From Syncephalis plumigaleata (lineage: Eukaryota > Zoopagomycota > Zoopagomycetes > Zoopagales > Piptocephalidaceae), in the NCBI GenBank assembly GCA_025201365.1, contig JAIXMF010000001.1:1736001-1800000 (forward strand): a DNA stretch of 64,000 nt, in the 5' to 3' direction. Positions 6,121 through 53,900 of this stretch are shown one piece after another. The position numbers and the translations under genes were made by a program. Within the stretch, counting starts at the first letter, position 1. Each line of letters starts with the position of its first letter. Under the pieces are notes generated by a model. It had not been told where the DNA came from. It did no database searches and saw only the letters and a program-made list of their open reading frames with translations.

Positions 6121-6381
6121 TATCTTCTTTTTATTTTTTGTTATTGTCAATGCTATATATATTATAATAATACCCCATTTGTTACCTTTATATGATGTTA
6201 TATTCGATGATCTATTAGCTGGTAGCTGGATTGATATTATCGATTAATCGTGAATGTAGGATTACTAGTCATTTGTGTCATGATTTATATTTAATAAACT
6301 AGGTGAGATTGTTACGTTAACCGAGTACCGTCTTGCATTATTTCATTCATTATAATCGATGTAATGATCAGAATAGACATA

Positions 6382-6387
6382 TTTATT
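6382..6387 (-). terminator. Poly(A) signal of the microexon gene
   Basis: AATAAA on the minus strand, about 155 nt into the final non-coding exon. The convergent VAM7 transcript ends near 6300, so the two 3' ends nearly meet. Confidence 0.4.
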
Positions 6388-6593
6388 CAATAAATGATTG
6401 AATAATGATCTTGTAGATATATTTGTAGTTGTTGTACCAAGGAATAATGACTTGAATGGCATGGACACTAAAGGGTCTTGCACCAATCCATTCTTGACTT
6501 GAATACCTATAATATCTACTTGATGATGTCCTTGTCTTGTTCTGTAATCATAATGGATTAGTATGGGTATGATTATTATGAATTATTACTTAC

Positions 6594-7917
6594 TGCTTAT
6601 CCTTGTTGCTATTCATTCAATATAGATTGTATTACGGTTAATACGTCGTAGGTGACTATTGGAATAGTAACTTACAAGCTATTATACGCAAGCATATGCA
6701 GGCATGTGCCATATCGTAGTTAGTACTCATTCGGTACATTCCAAACGGTAACTTACCTTCTATCATACGCAAGCGTACGTGAATCATGTGCCATATCGTA
6801 GTTAGTACTCATTCAGTACAATCCAAACGATTACTTACGGCCTATCATACGTAAGCATATGCGGGGCATGCGTCATAGTGTAGTTAGTACCATTTAGTAC
6901 AATCCAAACGGTAACTTACCTTCTATCATATGCAAGTATATGCGAATCATGTACCATATCGTAATTAGTACCATTCAGTACAGTCCGAATGATTACTTAC
7001 GGCCTATCATATGCAAGTATATGTGAATCATGCGTCATATCGTAGTTAGTACTCATTCAGTACAATCCAAACAGTAACTTACCTTCTATCATACGCAAGC
7101 ATATCCGGGCATGTGTCACATTGTAATTAGTACTCATTCAGTACAATCCAAACGATTACTTACGGCCTATCATATGCAAGTATATGTGAATCATGTGTCA
7201 TAACATAGTTAGCACTCATTCAGTACAATCCAAACAGTAACTTACCTTCTATCATACGCAAGCATATGCGGGGCATGCGTCATGGTGTAGTTAGTACAAT
7301 TCAGTACAATTTGAATGATTACTTACAAGCTGTTATACGCAAGCATATACAAGGCATGTGCCATATCGTAGTTAGTACTCATTCAGTACAATCCGAATGA
7401 TTACTTACGGCCTATCATACACAAGCATACGTGAATCATGTGCATATCGTAGTTAGTACATCGATTGTTTACAATCCGAATGATTACTTACGGGCTATCA
7501 TACGCAAGCATATGCGGGCATGTGCCATAGTGTAGTTAGTACCATTCAGTACAGTCCGCACGGTAACTTACAGGATCTTGAAAACGTAAACACGCATGAT
7601 AAAGATTTATACAGCAATTAGAATAACACATATTATGGTCAATAACTAGCTTACCTTCTATAGTTAACAAATTAATAAATAGAATAAACATTACAACGTG
7701 ATTAGCACGTCAAAACAACCATTTAATATACATGAACTTACGAGCTATCGGCAATCATCGATGGATAATGAAACAATAGACTACGATTAGTACATCAATT
7801 GATAGGGTTACGGCCAGACATACCACGACGATCCAGGGCAGGTGCTGCTTCAACGGCGACCAGACTGGCGAGAGCGACAACGGCGACGGCAATAGCGATA
7901 ACGGCAGAGAACTTCAT
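6594..7917 (-). CDS. Small secreted peptide encoded by one-codon microexons
   Basis: No known family. Exon 1 starts at 7917 and encodes a classic signal peptide (MKFSAVIAIAVAVVALASLV, then AVEA before APALDRR). Two donors are possible: GTATGT ending exon 1 at 7824, or GTAACC ending it at 7812; both leave phase 1. Then come microexons CTC 7744-7742, AAG 7657-7655, ATCCT 7576-7572, CCC 7494-7492, GCC 7411-7409, CTT 7329-7327, AAG 7248-7246, GCC 7166-7164, AAG 7085-7083, GCC 7003-7001, AAG 6922-6920, GCC 6841-6839, AAG 6759-6757, CTT 6678-6676. A 15-nt exon (6608-6594) carries the TAA, and a last non-coding exon starts at 6541. Joined, the tail reads QDPPALKAKAKAKLQQG and then stops, for 49 or 53 residues in all. 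From CCC onward each microexon is exactly one whole codon. Every intron has a GTAAGT-like donor, and the array introns all have a TACTAAC-like branch site and a terminal AG. Splicing is inferred from sequence only. Confidence 0.72.
6679..7571 (-). repeat. Tandem array of eleven near-identical introns separated by 3-nt exons
   Basis: The unit is about 78-80 nt of intron plus 3 nt of exon, period 80-83. On the minus strand each copy reads GTAAGT, about 25 nt, TACTAAC (variants TACTAAT and TGCTAAC), about 40 nt without any internal AG, then TAG or CAG. Two subtypes alternate: one with GTAAGTTAC near the donor follows AAG, the other with GTAAGTAATC follows GCC. They form a dimer of about 163 bp, and the four AAG exons of the array are spaced exactly 163 bp apart. 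CTT and CCC exons flank the AAG/GCC core. The five other introns of the gene are not copies of this unit. Confidence 0.88.
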
Positions 7918-8014
7918 GTTGATATTGGCTTAGTGGAATGGATAGACAGATAAGTTGACTAGAACGAGAGTAGATAGTAGTGAGAGTAGAATAGAACGAG
8001 AATATAAGCAGTGG

Positions 8015-8089: not shown

Positions 8090-8736
8090 GTGTCAAAAAG
8101 TGCTCGATTTATAGCCGAGATGATGATGATGGCGGATATTCCTAATGAGCATAATACGATGGACATAGGTCACAGTCATACTATCTCCATACGATACTCT
8201 CCTCTGTACATGGATTGTACTCGGAATGATGGAACATCCATCAGACTGCACGTTTACCATGCCATCCATGTGGATATTGACCAGTAGATTTGCTATCTGA
8301 ATGATAGGGCAATACTGTTCTAACAGCATCATGCCAATTAGGAGTGGATATTGGTATAACCGAGTTGCCAATCGATTGCTTATTGGCAATGCATTCAGTA
8401 AGCAAGCACCAATTAGATTAATGAATGGTGAATGTCTGCCATGTCGTGTAACCGCATGCTCTGTTAATTGTCTGAATCTACACATCATCATTTCAGAATA
8501 CTCCATTAATAATGACGTGTATACCTGTTACAACCATCATGACAGGCTATATTCTATTGAAATGATTGTACTAAACAACATGTATATGAATGTAAATCAA
8601 TTCATATTATGCCGATGACAATGTATTATTGCAGCCATCAATAACAACATGTGTAGGTGTGTTTACCAACCCATTTTATCTTGTTCCTTTTCTCTTCGTT
8701 GAATCGCATTCTAGAATCTTACCGCTAACCTCCACC
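8090..8736. other. Intergenic region upstream of the cyclophilin gene
   Basis: Overlapping open frames of 65-137 codons occur on both strands (for example 8506-8093 minus and 8301-8618 plus). None has domain-like composition or splice sites that extend it. I treat the stretch as the non-coding space between two divergent promoters. Confidence 0.5.
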
Positions 8737-26727: not shown

Positions 26728-29598
26728 TTATAACAAGAAGTTATAAAAAGCATAGTCAAATGGGTGAGGGACATATTCTGGCCGTGCGTACCTTTGCATC
26801 GAGCTTATGGTCTCCCATAGACCATAATGCATGATTCGCGAAGCGTCTACACCAATACTGTGTGTAGCTGAAGTGAATGTACGTCGAATGCTATGGGACA
26901 TCATCGAATTAGCAACGGCTGCTGGCACGCCCGCTTGCTTTAACACCTCTCTTAGAATCCCCGTAACTGTAATACTGCTCCTAAATATCTCTTTGGAGGA
27001 GAACACGGGAACCCAAAACGTTGGTTCCGTGTTGTTGATGTATGATGCCGACTCCAGGTATCGGCGAATGAGGGGGGCGGCGATGGTTTTAGTGGTGTCG
27101 ATGTTGACAGGCCGTCCAGGTTCATGCGTATGACGCTTAGAACCATGAACCACTACCCGTAGGGTAGGGCCTACCAATTGCACGTCACTCTTCTGAAGTT
27201 TCATCAGAGAGGACGCGCGCAACCCACACAATAAACCTACTAAAACCACCACCAGGTCGCGCAGCTCCTTTTGGCTTGGAGACTGCGTATCCCCCGACAC
27301 CAATGGGGCCAGCCAGGAGGGGAGGAAAAAGTTTAGGTTTGAGGATACGGTGGGTCGTTCAGTGTACGACCACGACGCGTATCCTCTCGTTAGTTGTGCA
27401 ACCAACGAGCCCTCGATTTCCGGGAAGCCGAGATGCTCGTTGATTGACCGTAGCGCCGAAAGGCGCGATTGAATTGTGGATGGAGCCAGTTCTCGCAGAC
27501 TGGCTGTGGCGATGTAAGCTGCTAATGTACCCACCTGCAAAGGGAATGGCGGCTCGTTATGTAACTCACAAAAACGCGTATAATTAGTCACATGCGAAGT
27601 GTATGTATTCCACGATGCTGCTGTATACTGCCGTTCGAATAACAACATAAGCCGCTCACGCTGCTCATCGCTCACGTTGACAGGTAGATTCAGTTGTTGC
27701 ATCCAACTTCGCACCATCTGGGCGCGCAAAGTCTCGCTCCGTCCAACCGGGCTACCAATATCTTCCAAGCGGGATTGACGAGAGGCTCCGGCATTATGTC
27801 TGTGTTGGACAGTATGTTCGCCCATACCCGAGGTGAGTCTACCTCCAATGTGGAAACCATCAGCTTGAGCACCAACGGCCACCAAGGTTGACTGGTCCAT
27901 CTGGGCAATATGACGGTAGCCTGCGCCTGATCTCTTACCAGCTTGTTGAGGATTACCCCGATGAGTCCGAAAGGAGGGTTGATGAAGTTGTTCTCCCCTT
28001 TCCATGACCACTGTAGAGCGTCCACTCCTTCGCAGCCATCGTTGACGTTGAGCGAGTTGTAGCGCGGTAGCTGTGCGTTCCACCCGGCTGCGAATCGATC
28101 GATTGTGTGAGGTCCGTATGCGTCTTCTATCTCTTGAAACATTGCTTTGGGTAGTTGCCAATCTGATTTTTGTATTATTCGCGACAAGAAATCCGCTTCT
28201 ACGTTGTATCTTCCTGGCAAATATTGAATCAACCCCAATAGCTGTATCTTGTTTCGTTGACATAGCTCCCATACGCGTCTCACGATGCTGTGCAAGGAAG
28301 CGCTGGAAGATGCGTGTGCATTTAGCGCGCCAATCGATGCCTGCGCGTCCATTCGGGCCTGTGCTGTGGAATTGTGTAGGAAAGTCTTGAAGGCCGTTAC
28401 GCCGTATAAAAGCCCCAACGCCTCTCGATGGACAATGTGCAACTCTTTCTCCTCCTCTGACCACTGACCGTAAGCTAATCTTTCCCGTCCTCCTTCTTCC
28501 ACCATTGTCGCTCCCCACCCTTCGTCTGACGCGTCGGTAGTAATGGTGAACTGTGCTGGACGTTGCTTTATCGGTGCGGCTGGCTGATCGCTCACGATTC
28601 GTAAGATTCGTCGCATCTCCCGTATACTGGCGTTGCTGACCTTGACTTTGACCTTCCAACTTTCCTTTCCGCGTAGATCGTTGTATAGCGCTCTGAGATG
28701 TATCATGATGTATGGAATCGCGTGTCGCGCGGCTATGACAATGCCTGTTACTTGAGCTAACTGCTTTGCGTCGAGCTTTCGCGTTTTCTTGGCACACTCT
28801 TTTAAGGCGTGTAATAAAGTAAACTTTATTTTTTCGCGATACGCGTCGGTTAATTGAAACTCCATCTTTGCAAAATCTAACCGATAACCGAGATGATCTA
28901 TGACTCGCGTAGGTGTCCAAGTACATTTTGTTGGATGCGCTCGTAGACCTAAGCTCCTCAACAATAGCTGTACCTTTTGTGGCCATCTTTCCTTCTTCTG
29001 CTGATGGTCGAGTAGGATCAGAAAATCGTCCAAGTAAGCTAGACACCGCAGACCTAGCACGCGCAAATGCTGTACCATGGGTCGCATTACCTTGACGAAG
29101 AAATAAGGAGACAGGTTCCAACCGAACGGTAGAGTCTGATACTGGTAATACCTTCCTAGTATCTTCGTTTGGAAGTACTGTTGCTGACTGGGCCTGATTC
29201 CTACTGCTAGATAGCCGTCCTTTAAATCGAAGGCGATAGCGGAGTCGTTGGGTTGTGCCAGATATTTTAACACGCGCAGGTCTTCGTATCGCATAGGCAT
29301 TTCCTGACAATGCTGATTCAAATAACGTAGGTCGATTATCAGTCGATAGCCTTGCGGTTTGCGAGGAATCAAGAAGGTTGGTGAGACGTATTTGGCTTGA
29401 CTCTCTGGGATTTCGATTATTGCACCGGCTTGCAACAACCGTTGAACTTCCAATTCGAGGAACTGGACTTCCGCTGGGTCGCGGGCCTGGTAGGATTGAT
29501 GATGAAAAGGTGAGGGCGCGCCTGCTGCTGCCCAAGGTACCGTCACACCACGCCGGATCCACTTCAACACTCTTCCGTTCGCCCCTATATGATGCCAC
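26728..29598 (-). CDS. DIRS element frame ending in a tyrosine recombinase
   Basis: Long frame overlapping the reverse transcriptase frame, a typical DIRS arrangement. Only the 3' third (roughly 27720-26728) has the composition and conserved blocks of a phage-integrase-type recombinase; the rest is the shadow of the reverse transcriptase region. The recombinase would circularise and integrate the element's DNA copy. Confidence 0.8.
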   Translation of the reverse strand: MASYRGERKSVEVDPAWCDGTLGSSRRALTFSSSILPGPRPSGSPVPRIGSSTVVASRCNNRNPRESSQIRLTNLLDSSQTARLSTDNRPTLFESALSGNAYAIRRPARVKISGTTQRLRYRLRFKGRLSSSRNQAQSATVLPNEDTRKVLPVSDSTVRLEPVSLFLRQGNATHGTAFARARSAVSSLLGRFSDPTRPSAEEGKMATKGTAIVEELRSTSASNKMYLDTYASHRSSRLSVRFCKDGVSINRRVSRKNKVYFITRLKRVCQENAKARRKAVSSSNRHCHSRATRDSIHHDTSQSAIQRSTRKGKLEGQSQGQQRQYTGDATNLTNRERSASRTDKATSSTVHHYYRRVRRRVGSDNGGRRRTGKISLRSVVRGGERVAHCPSRGVGAFIRRNGLQDFPTQFHSTGPNGRAGIDWRAKCTRIFQRFLAQHRETRMGAMSTKQDTAIGVDSIFARKIQRRSGFLVANNTKIRLATTQSNVSRDRRRIRTSHNRSIRSRVERTATALQLAQRQRWLRRSGRSTVVMERGEQLHQPSFRTHRGNPQQAGKRSGAGYRHIAQMDQSTLVAVGAQADGFHIGGRLTSGMGEHTVQHRHNAGASRQSRLEDIGSPVGRSETLRAQMVRSWMQQLNLPVNVSDEQRERLMLLFERQYTAASWNTYTSHVTNYTRFCELHNEPPFPLQVGTLAAYIATASLRELAPSTIQSRLSALRSINEHLGFPEIEGSLVAQLTRGYASWSYTERPTVSSNLNFFLPSWLAPLVSGDTQSPSQKELRDLVVVLVGLLCGLRASSLMKLQKSDVQLVGPTLRVVVHGSKRHTHEPGRPVNIDTTKTIAAPLIRRYLESASYINNTEPTFWVPVFSSKEIFRSSITVTGILREVLKQAGVPAAVANSMMSHSIRRTFTSATHSIGVDASRIMHYGLWETISSMQRYARPEYVPHPFDYAFYNFLL

Positions 29599-29696
29599 CG
29601 TTTCCAGGCCGATCTTACACTTAAGTGCAGGGGCCGATCGCCTGGAGGTGGCGAGTTCGAATCAGGCATGACCGGCACCGCCCGCCGGACCGCCAT
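27690..29696 (-). CDS. DIRS element reverse transcriptase/RNase H
   Basis: Reverse transcriptase in the N-terminal half, recognised by the catalytic YLDD-type block, then RNase H, then a region resembling the DIRS-associated N6-adenine methyltransferase-like domain. It begins within the 3' end of the gag-like frame. Confidence 0.88.
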   Translation of the reverse strand: MAVRRAVPVMPDSNSPPPGDRPLHLSVRSAWKRWHHIGANGRVLKWIRRGVTVPWAAAGAPSPFHHQSYQARDPAEVQFLELEVQRLLQAGAIIEIPESQAKYVSPTFLIPRKPQGYRLIIDLRYLNQHCQEMPMRYEDLRVLKYLAQPNDSAIAFDLKDGYLAVGIRPSQQQYFQTKILGRYYQYQTLPFGWNLSPYFFVKVMRPMVQHLRVLGLRCLAYLDDFLILLDHQQKKERWPQKVQLLLRSLGLRAHPTKCTWTPTRVIDHLGYRLDFAKMEFQLTDAYREKIKFTLLHALKECAKKTRKLDAKQLAQVTGIVIAARHAIPYIMIHLRALYNDLRGKESWKVKVKVSNASIREMRRILRIVSDQPAAPIKQRPAQFTITTDASDEGWGATMVEEGGRERLAYGQWSEEEKELHIVHREALGLLYGVTAFKTFLHNSTAQARMDAQASIGALNAHASSSASLHSIVRRVWELCQRNKIQLLGLIQYLPGRYNVEADFLSRIIQKSDWQLPKAMFQEIEDAYGPHTIDRFAAGWNAQLPRYNSLNVNDGCEGVDALQWSWKGENNFINPPFGLIGVILNKLVRDQAQATVILPRWTSQPWWPLVLKLMVSTLEVDSPRVWANILSNTDIMPEPLVNPAWKILVARLDGARLCAPRWCEVGCNN

Positions 29697-30687
29697 TTCG
29701 AGTTGTATTGGCGGGTTTCTTGGCGTCGGTAGCCGTTGAAGCCTTTGATTTGCTGCTAGACGATTGGTTTGCAGTTCGATGAGCCTGCATACTTTCCTTC
29801 TTCCTCAGCGCACGGAGTATCTCAGCTTGGGTATTGTGTGTGTATCGAATCATACCGACCGAATCCAATCTAGACTCCACCTGTCGAATAGCGTCGTCGT
29901 TCAAATCCAAACGAGCTCTCACCATCGAATAGCGGGTAAGTACGGTACGCTCTATCACCTGTAGGATGCTGGCTACTATCAAATACCCAGGCGATCCTTT
30001 CTTCAACTCAACGTTCCAAGCTGACCACGCCTGCATGGTTCTGATGATGTACAAAACCAGCGATAACATCGCGCGTCCCTCTCGCTGTCCTTCTCCCGTT
30101 AACTTTGGGAAAATTTCATCGTGAATGGTTGAGAGATTTTGCGGCCGTGGATCCACATAATTAACAACGGGAATAAAACCCAAGAAGGGAGTCAATAATT
30201 CATGCGACTGAGCATATTCCGACGGCGATTCATAGAAATGCGTAATCCGAAGCAAAAATTCGACAAATTGCGGCGATGTTGGATCGAACTCCACTGGAAC
30301 TTCCGCTTCTTTTTCGTTTGTAATTTTTATATTCCCACGAGGGTCCTCGTCCTCGGACGCTTCATCAGGGTCTAGCTGATTCTCGCTCGCCTCCCGCTGT
30401 TCCCTCTCGCGTTGCATAATCTGTGCAACCTGTCGTGCCCGTTCAACATCTTGGACACCCTCCTGTATTAGACCGGGTGCTTCGGCCTCCTGACTAGCAC
30501 CTGCCCTCGTACCGTTCGCCTGCAGACCATTATTGTTTGCACGATCCGAAGCTCCAGTTGGGCGATGGGGGTTCTGTAACATCCTTTGAGACACTAGATC
30601 TGCTATTGCGGCCATATCCTCCTGACATATGCGCACAGCAGCAGGCTCTTCGTCTTCGAAATTCTGTTGACTTGTCCCGTCTGACAT
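29662..30687 (-). CDS. DIRS element gag-like protein
   Basis: First frame of the element, about 341 residues, with an acidic, Glu/Gln-rich N-terminal third and a basic Ser/Lys/Gly-rich tail. Assigned by position; gag proteins of this order are poorly conserved. Confidence 0.6.
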   Translation of the reverse strand: MSDGTSQQNFEDEEPAAVRICQEDMAAIADLVSQRMLQNPHRPTGASDRANNNGLQANGTRAGASQEAEAPGLIQEGVQDVERARQVAQIMQREREQREASENQLDPDEASEDEDPRGNIKITNEKEAEVPVEFDPTSPQFVEFLLRITHFYESPSEYAQSHELLTPFLGFIPVVNYVDPRPQNLSTIHDEIFPKLTGEGQREGRAMLSLVLYIIRTMQAWSAWNVELKKGSPGYLIVASILQVIERTVLTRYSMVRARLDLNDDAIRQVESRLDSVGMIRYTHNTQAEILRALRKKESMQAHRTANQSSSSKSKASTATDAKKPANTTRNGGPAGGAGHA

Positions 30688-30791
30688 GTTATAAAAATAA
30701 ATATATATGGAAATATAGATAGATAAAGGTAAGAATATTCTTCAATAAAAAATTTTGACTTGCTAGAACGCTTTATTCAGTTGTTTGCCGA

Positions 30792-50968: not shown

Positions 50969-53900
50969 ATGGATCGATATCGACAATCCAGGAATACCAA
51001 TGATGAACAAATGGCATCTACCAGTTATGGCGAAGAGAATACAATACCACCCATGGAGAGGAGTGCATCCGCGGAGGAAGGATTGCGCCATCGTAGACCA
51101 TTGGCAAAGCGTGCCACCACTAATTTCGGTGAACCATCGAGGGTTGACGCGGAGACCGGAAAGGCAAAGTATGCCGCGTTAAGCAAAACGTTCAGTCATC
51201 CCCACCGGTGCTGGTGCTGGTACAGAAACGATCACCGCATCACCCGCTCAGATGGAGGAAGGCAAGCAACAAGAGGGCAAGGTCGATCTGGAAGAGTATC
51301 TCAACAATCGATTGAACGAAGCGAAACGTCGCGGTATACACGGCAAGAGACTCGGTGTCACCTTTCGTGACTTGGTGGTGATCGGTGACTCGGCGACACG
51401 CGAGCATATTCAAACTTTTTGGACGCCATTCTATCGGGCTGCTCGTTCGCTCGGTGTAATGCTACATCTCGCGGCGAAACCACCACCGGCGGAACGTGTT
51501 GAGATCCTGCACGGTATCACCGGGCTATGCGGTTACGGTGAAATGCTACTCGTGCTGGGTAAGCCAGGATCGGGTTGTTCCACGCTATTGCGCGTACTCG
51601 CCAATCAACGTCATATCTACAAAGAGATACGTGGTGATGTCAGTTATGGTGGTATACCCGCCACTGAAATGTCACAATACAAAGGAGAAATTGCCTATAA
51701 TCAAGAGGATGATATCCATTACCCGAAAGTAAGTGTCTACACTATTGTTATCATTATTATTGACTAACTAACTGATCAAATGAAATAGCTTACCGTAAGG
51801 AATACGTTAGAGTTCGTGTGCAAGTGTCGTACACCCGAGAAGAAGGTGACCAATAGCTCGAGTGAATTCGTGAGGGAAATGGTCGATAAGGTGTGCGAGA
51901 TATTCGGTTTGACTCATTGTAAGGACACGCAAGTCGGTAATGAAACGATACGCGGTGTGTCTGGCGGTGAGCGTAAACGTCTCTCCATCGCCGAACAAGT
52001 AGTAACGATGGCCACCATCGGTATATGGGACGGGAGTACGAAAGGATTGGACGCGTCGACCGCACTTGATTTCGTACGATCATTAAGAATCAGCGCGGAC
52101 ACATTGGAGCGTACCACGATTGGCACATTCTACCAAGCGAGCGAGAACATTTACAACGAATTCGACAAAGTGCTCGTACTCGACCAAGGGCATTGTCTTT
52201 ACTTTGGTCCAACCAGTCAGGCAAAGTCCTACTTCGAAGAGATGGGCTTCGAGTGTCCAAAACGTATGACGACACCGGATTTCCTCACGAGTGTGACACA
52301 GTCGCGAGAACGACGCGTCAAATCAGGCTACGAGGACACGGTACCGACTACGGCGGAGGAATTCGCACAACGCTTTCGAACAAGTTCACAATACGCGATC
52401 ACCTTGAACGAGCTGGCCGAGTTCAGCGAGACACTCGGGGAGGAGCGACCCGATGTCGAGTTTCGCGAGGCAGTCATTCAAGCGAAACATAAAGGCGTCA
52501 AGCGTCGTTCACCCTACATGACACCCTATCGCCACCAGTTGATGGCGTGTCTAATACGTGAATTCCACATCATGTACGGTAATCGATTCGAGATCATCTC
52601 CCATTTGGTATTCACCATGGTGATGGCCGTGATTGTCGGTTCACTCTTCTACAAGTTACCGCTGGATAGCTCGGGTGCGTTCACTCGTGGCGGTGCACTC
52701 TTCGTGTCGGTACTGTTCAACGCGCTCTCATCGCAAGCGGAACTATCCAAGACATTCTATGGACGTGGTGTACTCTATAAGCACAAAGCGTACGCGCTAT
52801 ACCATCCGTCGGCATTCTATATAGCGCAAGTAATTGCGGATATCCCACGTATTCTATTATCGGTCATTCTATACGCCGTGCTCATTTATTGGATGAGCGA
52901 GTTCTACTCGAGTGCAGCCGCTTTCTTCACTTTTGTCTTTGGTTTTTCGTTATGTCCATGGCTATGACGGCGTTGTTCCGTCTATTCGGTACGATCACGC
53001 CAAACATTCAGATAGCCAACATTCTATCGGGTATTTTCCTGTTGAGTTTCCTATTGTACACCGGCTATATCATACCATGAGTAGCATGAAGGGCTGGTTC
53101 ATCTGGATACGTTATATCAATCCGTTAGCATGGGGATTCGAGGCGCTACTTCTTAACGAGTATAAGAATATCGTATTCCATTGTACACCGCCTAGTCTAC
53201 TACCATTTGGCACGGGATACGATGATCTACGCTATAAAACATGCACCATTGCCGGGGCATTACCCGGTACGGATAGTGTGAGTGGTGCCACCTATTTAAG
53301 CACGTATCTTAGTGCACATGTACCGATGCTTTGGCCGGATCTTGCCATCACCATTGGATTCTGGCTATTATACATTGTTATGGCAATGTTCTTTATTGAG
53401 GTATTGGAGTTTGGCAAGGGTGGCTATACCACGAATGTTTACAAGTCAGATGTCGATAAGCGATGTCCTCCACATCCGATGCATCAGATCGATGCAAAGG
53501 ATGATGATGATGATGATAGTGCATCCAGTGATTCTGAACGAGAAGGAGAAGGAGAGGAAGGAGAAGTAGCAGTAGGAAAGGCAAAGAAAGAATGCCAGCA
53601 CTGGCCAGCATAAGAAAGTCGACACGAGTAGACGACATGACGAGGTACCAATATTCTTTTGGAATAAAGTAAGCTACGTCGTACCGGTAAAGACCGATCC
53701 AAATGGTAAGCGTCGCTTGCTCAACAACGTATCCGGATGGATCTACCCGGGTGAACTCGTGGCATTGATGGGCAGTAGTGGTGCCGGTAAAACAACTCTA
53801 CTCGATGTTTTGGCACAACGTAAAGCTGAAGGATCCGTTAGTGGTGATATTCGACTACAGAAGCATGTACCCAGTACTGATTTCCGTTTATTGACGGGCT

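Follow-up and report, generated by a model that had tools for sequence, protein, structure and literature searches.

The locus considered here raises the question of whether a gene can be built, for most of its coding length, from exons of a single codon each. It lies in a 64,000-nt stretch of DNA (the window) from Syncephalis plumigaleata, a mycoparasite of the order Zoopagales (Zoopagomycota); in the available part of a published survey, S. pseudoplumigaleata is listed with mycoparasites and the genus is cited as one of obligate mycoparasites (PMC6784888). An earlier note, made from the letters of the window, had proposed a signal-peptide exon, thirteen 3-nt exons, a 5-nt exon and a 15-nt exon on the minus strand, and had taken the product to be a real secreted peptide. 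We found that the locus is very probably one member of a hypervariable secreted-peptide family of S. plumigaleata, in which, judging from the sequence, the mature peptides would be encoded by units consisting of a codon and an intron.

All of the proposed exons were placed by our parse, which runs from 7917 to 6541 on the minus strand and also includes a 3'UTR intron. Upstream, a TATAAA box-like hexamer (8108–8113) is followed by a CT-rich presumptive 5'UTR (both by eye). Exon 1 (7824–7917; 94 nt, i.e., 31 codons plus one base, with the ATG at 7917) covers a putative signal peptide, judged by eye, and a pro-part that extends to Arg-Arg. Intron 1 (7745–7823; GTATGT..TACTAAT..TAG) is followed by the microexons CTC (7742–7744) and AAG (7655–7657), both with split codons, and then by the 5-nt exon ATCCT (7572–7576), which stands between the second and the third 3-nt exons and sets phase 0. 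From this point on, as the earlier note had stated, each 3-nt exon is one phase-0 codon: CCC (Pro, 7492–7494), GCC (Ala, 7409–7411), CTT (Leu, 7327–7329), AAG (Lys, 7246–7248), GCC (Ala, 7164–7166), AAG (Lys, 7083–7085), GCC (Ala, 7001–7003), AAG (Lys, 6920–6922), GCC (Ala, 6839–6841), AAG (Lys, 6757–6759) and CTT (Leu, 6676–6678). The 15-nt exon CAACAAGGATAAGCA (6594–6608; CAA CAA GGA TAA GCA) closes the frame with the stop TAA, as had been claimed; beyond it, we can add a terminal 3'UTR intron of 52 nt (6593–6542; GTAAGT..TACTAAT..ACAG), the flanks of which are contiguous in five of nine intronless paralogs, and a terminal exon with a conserved 3'UTR (6300–6541, from family comparison; the lower limit is approximate). 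Joining the exons gives MKFSAVIAIAVAVVALASLVAVEAAPALDRR-AQDPPALKAKAKAKLQQG-stop, thus reproducing an uninterrupted frame with a Lys-Ala tail. It should be noted that the microexons add 13 x 3 + 5 = 44 nt between exon 1 and the 15-nt exon, and not the 47 nt that had been predicted.

The splice signals are of the kind that had been described, GTAAGT-like donors and AG acceptors. The donor is GTAAGT in 14 of the 16 introns, and GTATGT and GTAAGC occur once each; all 16 introns, 52–84 nt in size, have GT, a branch-point-like TACTAAC-type motif and AG, as expected for U2-type introns, all three being required by the parser. An ordinary intron of the window, ending at 51788, has a matching splice grammar (by eye). 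Elsewhere in the window, an aspartokinase frame matches a deposited S. plumigaleata protein at 100% identity over 96% of the query, and two frames of a retroelement, presumably DIRS-like (26728–30741, minus strand), contain Pfam domains of the reverse transcriptase, RNase H-like, Dam and phage-integrase types.

A tandem repeat of codon-plus-intron units (~81 nt, with a 163-nt dimer) spans 6679–7571 and takes in ten of the microexons (repeat analysis and parse). The window gene alone proves little because its repetition, with the 163-nt period, reflects descent; the proof has to come from the family. Exon 1 is matched at least 149 times in the genome (of 173 candidates, 150 were scored), including some near-identical copies on short contigs, and a hydrophobic N-terminus, taken by eye for a signal peptide, is common to the 149. 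We fetched 40 loci, mostly the best-ranked of the 149 matches, and seven more that were chosen as near copies or array hits; arrays were followed only close to the exon-1 family. A donor at the same place of exon 1 and at least five chained introns were found in 31 of the 40 loci, the other nine being without them; all seven added loci carry arrays, which together with the window gene makes 39 array genes. These were parsed by chain scoring, with exons of 1–18 nt allowed without preference, and with GT, TACTAAC within two mismatches and AG required. A greedy parser that skipped many exons had been dropped in favor of it, and a variant that took AGs near the branch point produced worse chains (e.g., the first microexon was lost), so its counts were not used. 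The number of one-codon exons per gene ranges from 3 to 46.

Several observations touch on individual loci. The array of L027 (C113:157800-163900) opens with exons of 9 and 12 nt, encoding a proline-rich stretch, and continues with 3-nt exons. Loci L011 and L012 have an intronless frame, yet a long series of sites resembling 3-nt exons lies ~2.6 kb downstream of exon 1 and is perhaps a second gene. Short contigs such as C178, C281, C189 and C328 contain copies that are nearly identical to array genes and may be haplotigs or repeated regions.

The length of three nucleotides does not depend on the parse. Of the 898 internal exons in the 39 parsed genes, 771 measure 3 nt, i.e., are short and frame-neutral, under a procedure that is agnostic to length, and 763 of 937 family introns have 76–84 nt. 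In the parse-free count at 47 loci, TAG-N3-GTAAGT occurs 514 times versus 0–17 times for any other length from 0 to 15, and the reversed-donor control at the same loci gives 1–18 at every length. The window outside 6500–8000 has no N3 peak (3 at length three, 0–4 elsewhere). Genome-wide, the pattern TACTAACN{30,45}TAG-N3-GTAAGT has 281 matches and its reversed-pattern control has none; the same pattern with N4 or N2 has no matches (controls 4 and 2), and with N6 it has four (control 6), three of which share letters and lie on three contigs.

If the arrays are translated, the codons should be free of stops in one frame. There is one stop in the 771 3-nt exons, compared to 7/688 in the concatenated runs read one base off and 73/688 two bases off; from composition, the first 608 3-nt exons would be expected to have 15 to 28 stops (about 15 by position composition). 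Control triplets taken at eight further fixed positions within the unit contain 1 to 47 stops of 458, and at one of these positions the count is as low as in the microexons (1/458). Since a low stop count is thus possible at one intron position, comparing the frames with each other is the better test. It should be noted that 222 of the 771 exons are outside phase 0 by the parse, partly by design, being upstream of the phase-correcting exon. Codon choice in the microexons is narrow: A and G make up 7% and 3% of four-fold sites versus 30% and 19% in the window genes, and we read this avoidance of purines at the third base as a probable splicing constraint. Synonymous choice in the microexons shows no agreement with that of the window genes (RSCU rho -0.21, p 0.12).

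At the end of the array, TAAGC[AG] or TGAGC[AG] closes the last parsed exon of 30 of 39 genes, and TAAACA that of two more; by the parse, 22 of these 32 genes have the terminal stop in the same frame as the ATG. In 20 of the 39 parses, the only stop falls within the last three codons, nine have none because the array end was left unparsed, and ten have an earlier stop. Two of the ten early stops (L016 and L025) are inside the final exon, two more (L028 and L038) arise because the parse missed a 5-nt exon that is visible in the sequence, and the candidate causes of the other six are the parser, the assembly or decayed copies. These early stops, together with the broken exon 1 of L054 and the many matches on short contigs, would fit a decaying multicopy family in which some arrays were once spliced and most, perhaps including the window copy, are now pseudogenes. 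We consider this unlikely: the window copy is intact and has strong signals throughout, 29 of the 39 parses have no early stop, and in nine close pairs the splice signals differ at 42/2602 positions (1.6%), significantly less than the other intron positions (389/10611), with the limitation that the sites were picked on one member of each pair. Constraint on the splice signals is thus supported by comparison of near copies.

The intronless members of the family provide traces of the joined form. The nine relatives, out of the 40 fetched, that lack the array share exon 1 and have a continuous frame. In five of them (L023, L029, L034, L039 and L040), the frame continues as Arg-Arg-Ala-Pro, and many array genes would likewise have RR-AP after splicing, via differently cut exons. 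In five (L011, L012, L023, L034 and L040), TAAGCA is directly joined to A[AG]CAAGACA, matching the junction expected once the last intron of the array genes is removed. These paralogs appear to be processed copies or intronless cousins, and the predicted exon boundaries are supported either way.

The same paralogs bear on the origin of the arrays. The multiplication of codon-plus-intron units has to be weighed against an invasion of intronless genes by introner-like introns inserted between codons; this second origin would be in keeping with the first exon and the 3'UTR that the intronless paralogs share with the array genes, and with the introns of different genes being ~70% alike. Codon choice in the intronless copies, which also bears on this origin, is mixed, being microexon-like in L009 and L040 and otherwise in L034. 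Insertion at every phase-0 codon boundary is, however, hard to explain, and near copies gain or lose whole units: the gaps between L030 and L051 measure 80 and 82 nt, and L052 and L053 are separated by a single gap of 996 nt, i.e., 12 x 83. Therefore, we regard the introner origin as improbable. L030 ends in TAA and L051 in TGA. The pair L028/L038 had been considered as a further case of unit gain and was dropped, its alignment having no gap of 20 nt or more. Introns associated with the same codon are slightly more alike upstream than those of different codons (0.714 vs 0.701), and values over 0.85 were found in 48 vs 5 of 2500 pairs, which hints that codon-plus-intron cassettes may move.

Within the units, it is the codon that varies. 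Across 549 units, the three microexon positions have column information of 0.03, 0.08 and 0.15 bits, the lowest among 60 positions, and some positions upstream of the acceptor reach 1–1.5 bits. Three pairs that are more distant differ at 46–65% of their microexon bases and at 24–27% of the remaining intron. The 3'UTR terminal exon is present in 37 of 48 genes and is strongly conserved across the family; a long open frame in this last exon was ruled out as coding because variability is equal at the three codon positions. Some deposited models nevertheless translate the 3'UTR exon, despite the absence of codon-position bias. Since introns and 3'UTR are alike across the family and the codons are almost free, the arrays would be a substrate for peptide diversification.

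Deposited protein models agree in part with such arrays. With the predicted peptide of L031 as a protein query, we found nine deposited S. plumigaleata proteins. When P0123 was compared to the ordered loose 3-nt candidates of L031, 40 of its 51 mature residues matched; the Ser at 258 is probably a chance match, and without it 39 residues follow in order from the Asn at 505, with two candidates unused inside and one Cys before. Similarly, 38 of 61 residues of P0126 match the loose candidates of L022 in order, with two unused inside, and include a Glu that the parse missed and that is present in the loose list. P0124 has a short array stretch, PQEWNEF, and then departs from the array. The deposited models omit some microexons and in places read into introns. 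Strings of 3-nt exons are seldom proposed by gene finders without transcripts, and for this reason the deposited models, BDF22DRAFT_685769 and BDF22DRAFT_685685 among them, probably rest on transcript evidence. In another public record, P0002 (46 aa; ENA contig of 7762 nt) is a read-through of exon 1 with 60% identity, which may indicate that a relative shares this first exon and its donor.

In an alternative reading, the array would be a minisatellite within a single long intron, exon 1 being joined to the stop exon and the signals being frozen copies of an ancestral intron end. The units are indeed tandem repeats, and repetition copies signals passively. In addition, divergence of the microexons in the nine close pairs, 16/577 (2.8%), is not significantly below that of the introns, 389/10611 (3.7%; Fisher p 0.30), which falls short of establishing purifying selection on the codons, even if four of the nine pairs have no microexon difference at all (0/250). 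A minisatellite is nonetheless very improbable given the scarcity of stops in one frame, the exact 3-nt spacing in diverged paralogs, a Cys at a fixed position and deposited proteins with dozens of array codons in order. Recursive splicing, with the units as ratchet points (zero-length exons) of one long intron that is removed stepwise and leaves no codons, is hardly credible, since, for all that the acceptor adjoins the donor, that AAG|GTAAGT of the window gene could serve as a ratchet point and that 31 of 771 3-nt exons end in AG, zero-spaced TAG-GTAAGT occurs once against 514 times at three, 711 of the 771 exons are without AG, and the codons and many terminal stops are in frame.

Splicing of the arrays is thus strongly supported as a prediction from sequence, and a real spliced peptide of one-codon exons, as the earlier note had proposed, is the best reading, given dozens of genes, few phase-0 stops, joined junctions and deposited proteins. 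In this family of codon-plus-intron genes, exon 1 would provide the signal peptide and a short pro-part with a dibasic Arg-Arg end, which we take to be a Kex2-like site, and the mature peptide would come from tandem units, each consisting of one codon and one intron of ~80 nt with its own donor, branch point and acceptor. Since every intron bears all its signals, intron definition would suffice for the spliceosome to take out each of them. The weight of the donor is in GTAAGT rather than in exon bases, which is consistent with free variation of the codon. Adjacent introns are probably spliced one by one rather than simultaneously, because two spliceosomes can hardly fit 3 nt apart. With exons of one codon, mostly in phase 0, the gain, loss or skipping of a unit changes one residue and keeps the frame.

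Downstream of the pro-part with its final RR, almost all of the mature peptide would be encoded by the array. Cys is absent from the window copy, and its Lys-Ala tail is peculiar to it among the fetched members; the predicted mature peptides of other members are quite different, many having Cys. Of the 33 genes with a phase-0 microexon, 16 have Cys as the first of these, two near-copy pairs being among the 16, compared to a shuffled mean of 2.7 and a maximum of 9 in 5000. The pattern C..CC..C appears in eight of 39 parses; adjacency of two Cys (11 vs a shuffled mean of 5.7 and a maximum of 13) is within the shuffle range. No Pfam family was above the cut-off in seven family proteins, and the one peptide searched against the PDB had no match. 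From the signal-peptide-like exon 1, the diversity and the lifestyle, we infer that the peptides are most likely released and act on or at the host fungus; self-recognition or an antimicrobial role may be alternatives.

The exons of aphid bicycle genes are larger. These genes are, according to the available part of their description, a fast-evolving family of putative effectors that was sought through gene structure, as here, but in insects (PMC9168663). In small secreted salivary proteins of the Hessian fly, the signal peptide, UTRs and intron are likewise conserved and the mature region is highly diversified, but the abstract mentions no arrays of tiny exons (PMC2955719). Xlr2 of Trichoderma virens provides a functional microexon in a filamentous fungus; unlike the present case, the part available describes a single exon that is regulated, and the gene encodes a GAL4-like DNA-binding protein (PMC11121469). 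Plant microexons (1–15 nt, including the 1-nt exons of APC11 and VPS55) have strong donors (GTRAGT at VPS55) and are often missed by annotation, whereas, in the portion of the source available, they are single conserved exons of ordinary genes, two adjacent at most, without arrays (PMC8831610).

The closest likeness that had been suggested is to the micro-exon genes (MEGs) of Schistosoma, and the comparison is fair: in the accessible text of a review, MEGs have many tiny, mostly frame-neutral exons and encode variable secreted parasite proteins (PMC10526429). The size range given for them needs care, the abstract stating 3–81 bp and the text a minimum of 6 bp (PMC10526429, the same portion). 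As described there, MEGs have 10–20 very short exons, mostly of 15 bp, and introns of 100 to almost 5000 bp (PMC10526429), in contrast to a fungal family with series of exons that measure exactly 3 nt, as many as 46 in one gene, and near-repeat introns of ~80 nt. The Syncephalis family has neither the long introns nor the predominance of 15-bp exons. Among the matches listed, the open-access literature contained nothing on runs of 3-nt exons or on a Syncephalis peptide family, in agreement with the earlier note, which knew of no described run of single-codon exons; microexons and micro-exon genes are already known, and it is the series of single-codon exons, as many as 46 in one gene and arranged in tandem units, that are undescribed among these matches.

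Such genes would be easily missed by standard annotation and read mapping; therefore, more may exist. If true, a succession of up to 46 exons of 3 nt would put the spliceosome to an extreme test on exons too small for two neighboring complexes, and intron definition likewise. More tentatively, the unit of evolution may be the codon with its own intron, so that cassettes could be gained, lost, exchanged and perhaps alternatively spliced in a frame-safe manner, giving the parasite a library of hypervariable secreted peptides. If true, this would be a simple way for a fungus living on other fungi to diversify its secreted peptides rapidly while keeping the frame.
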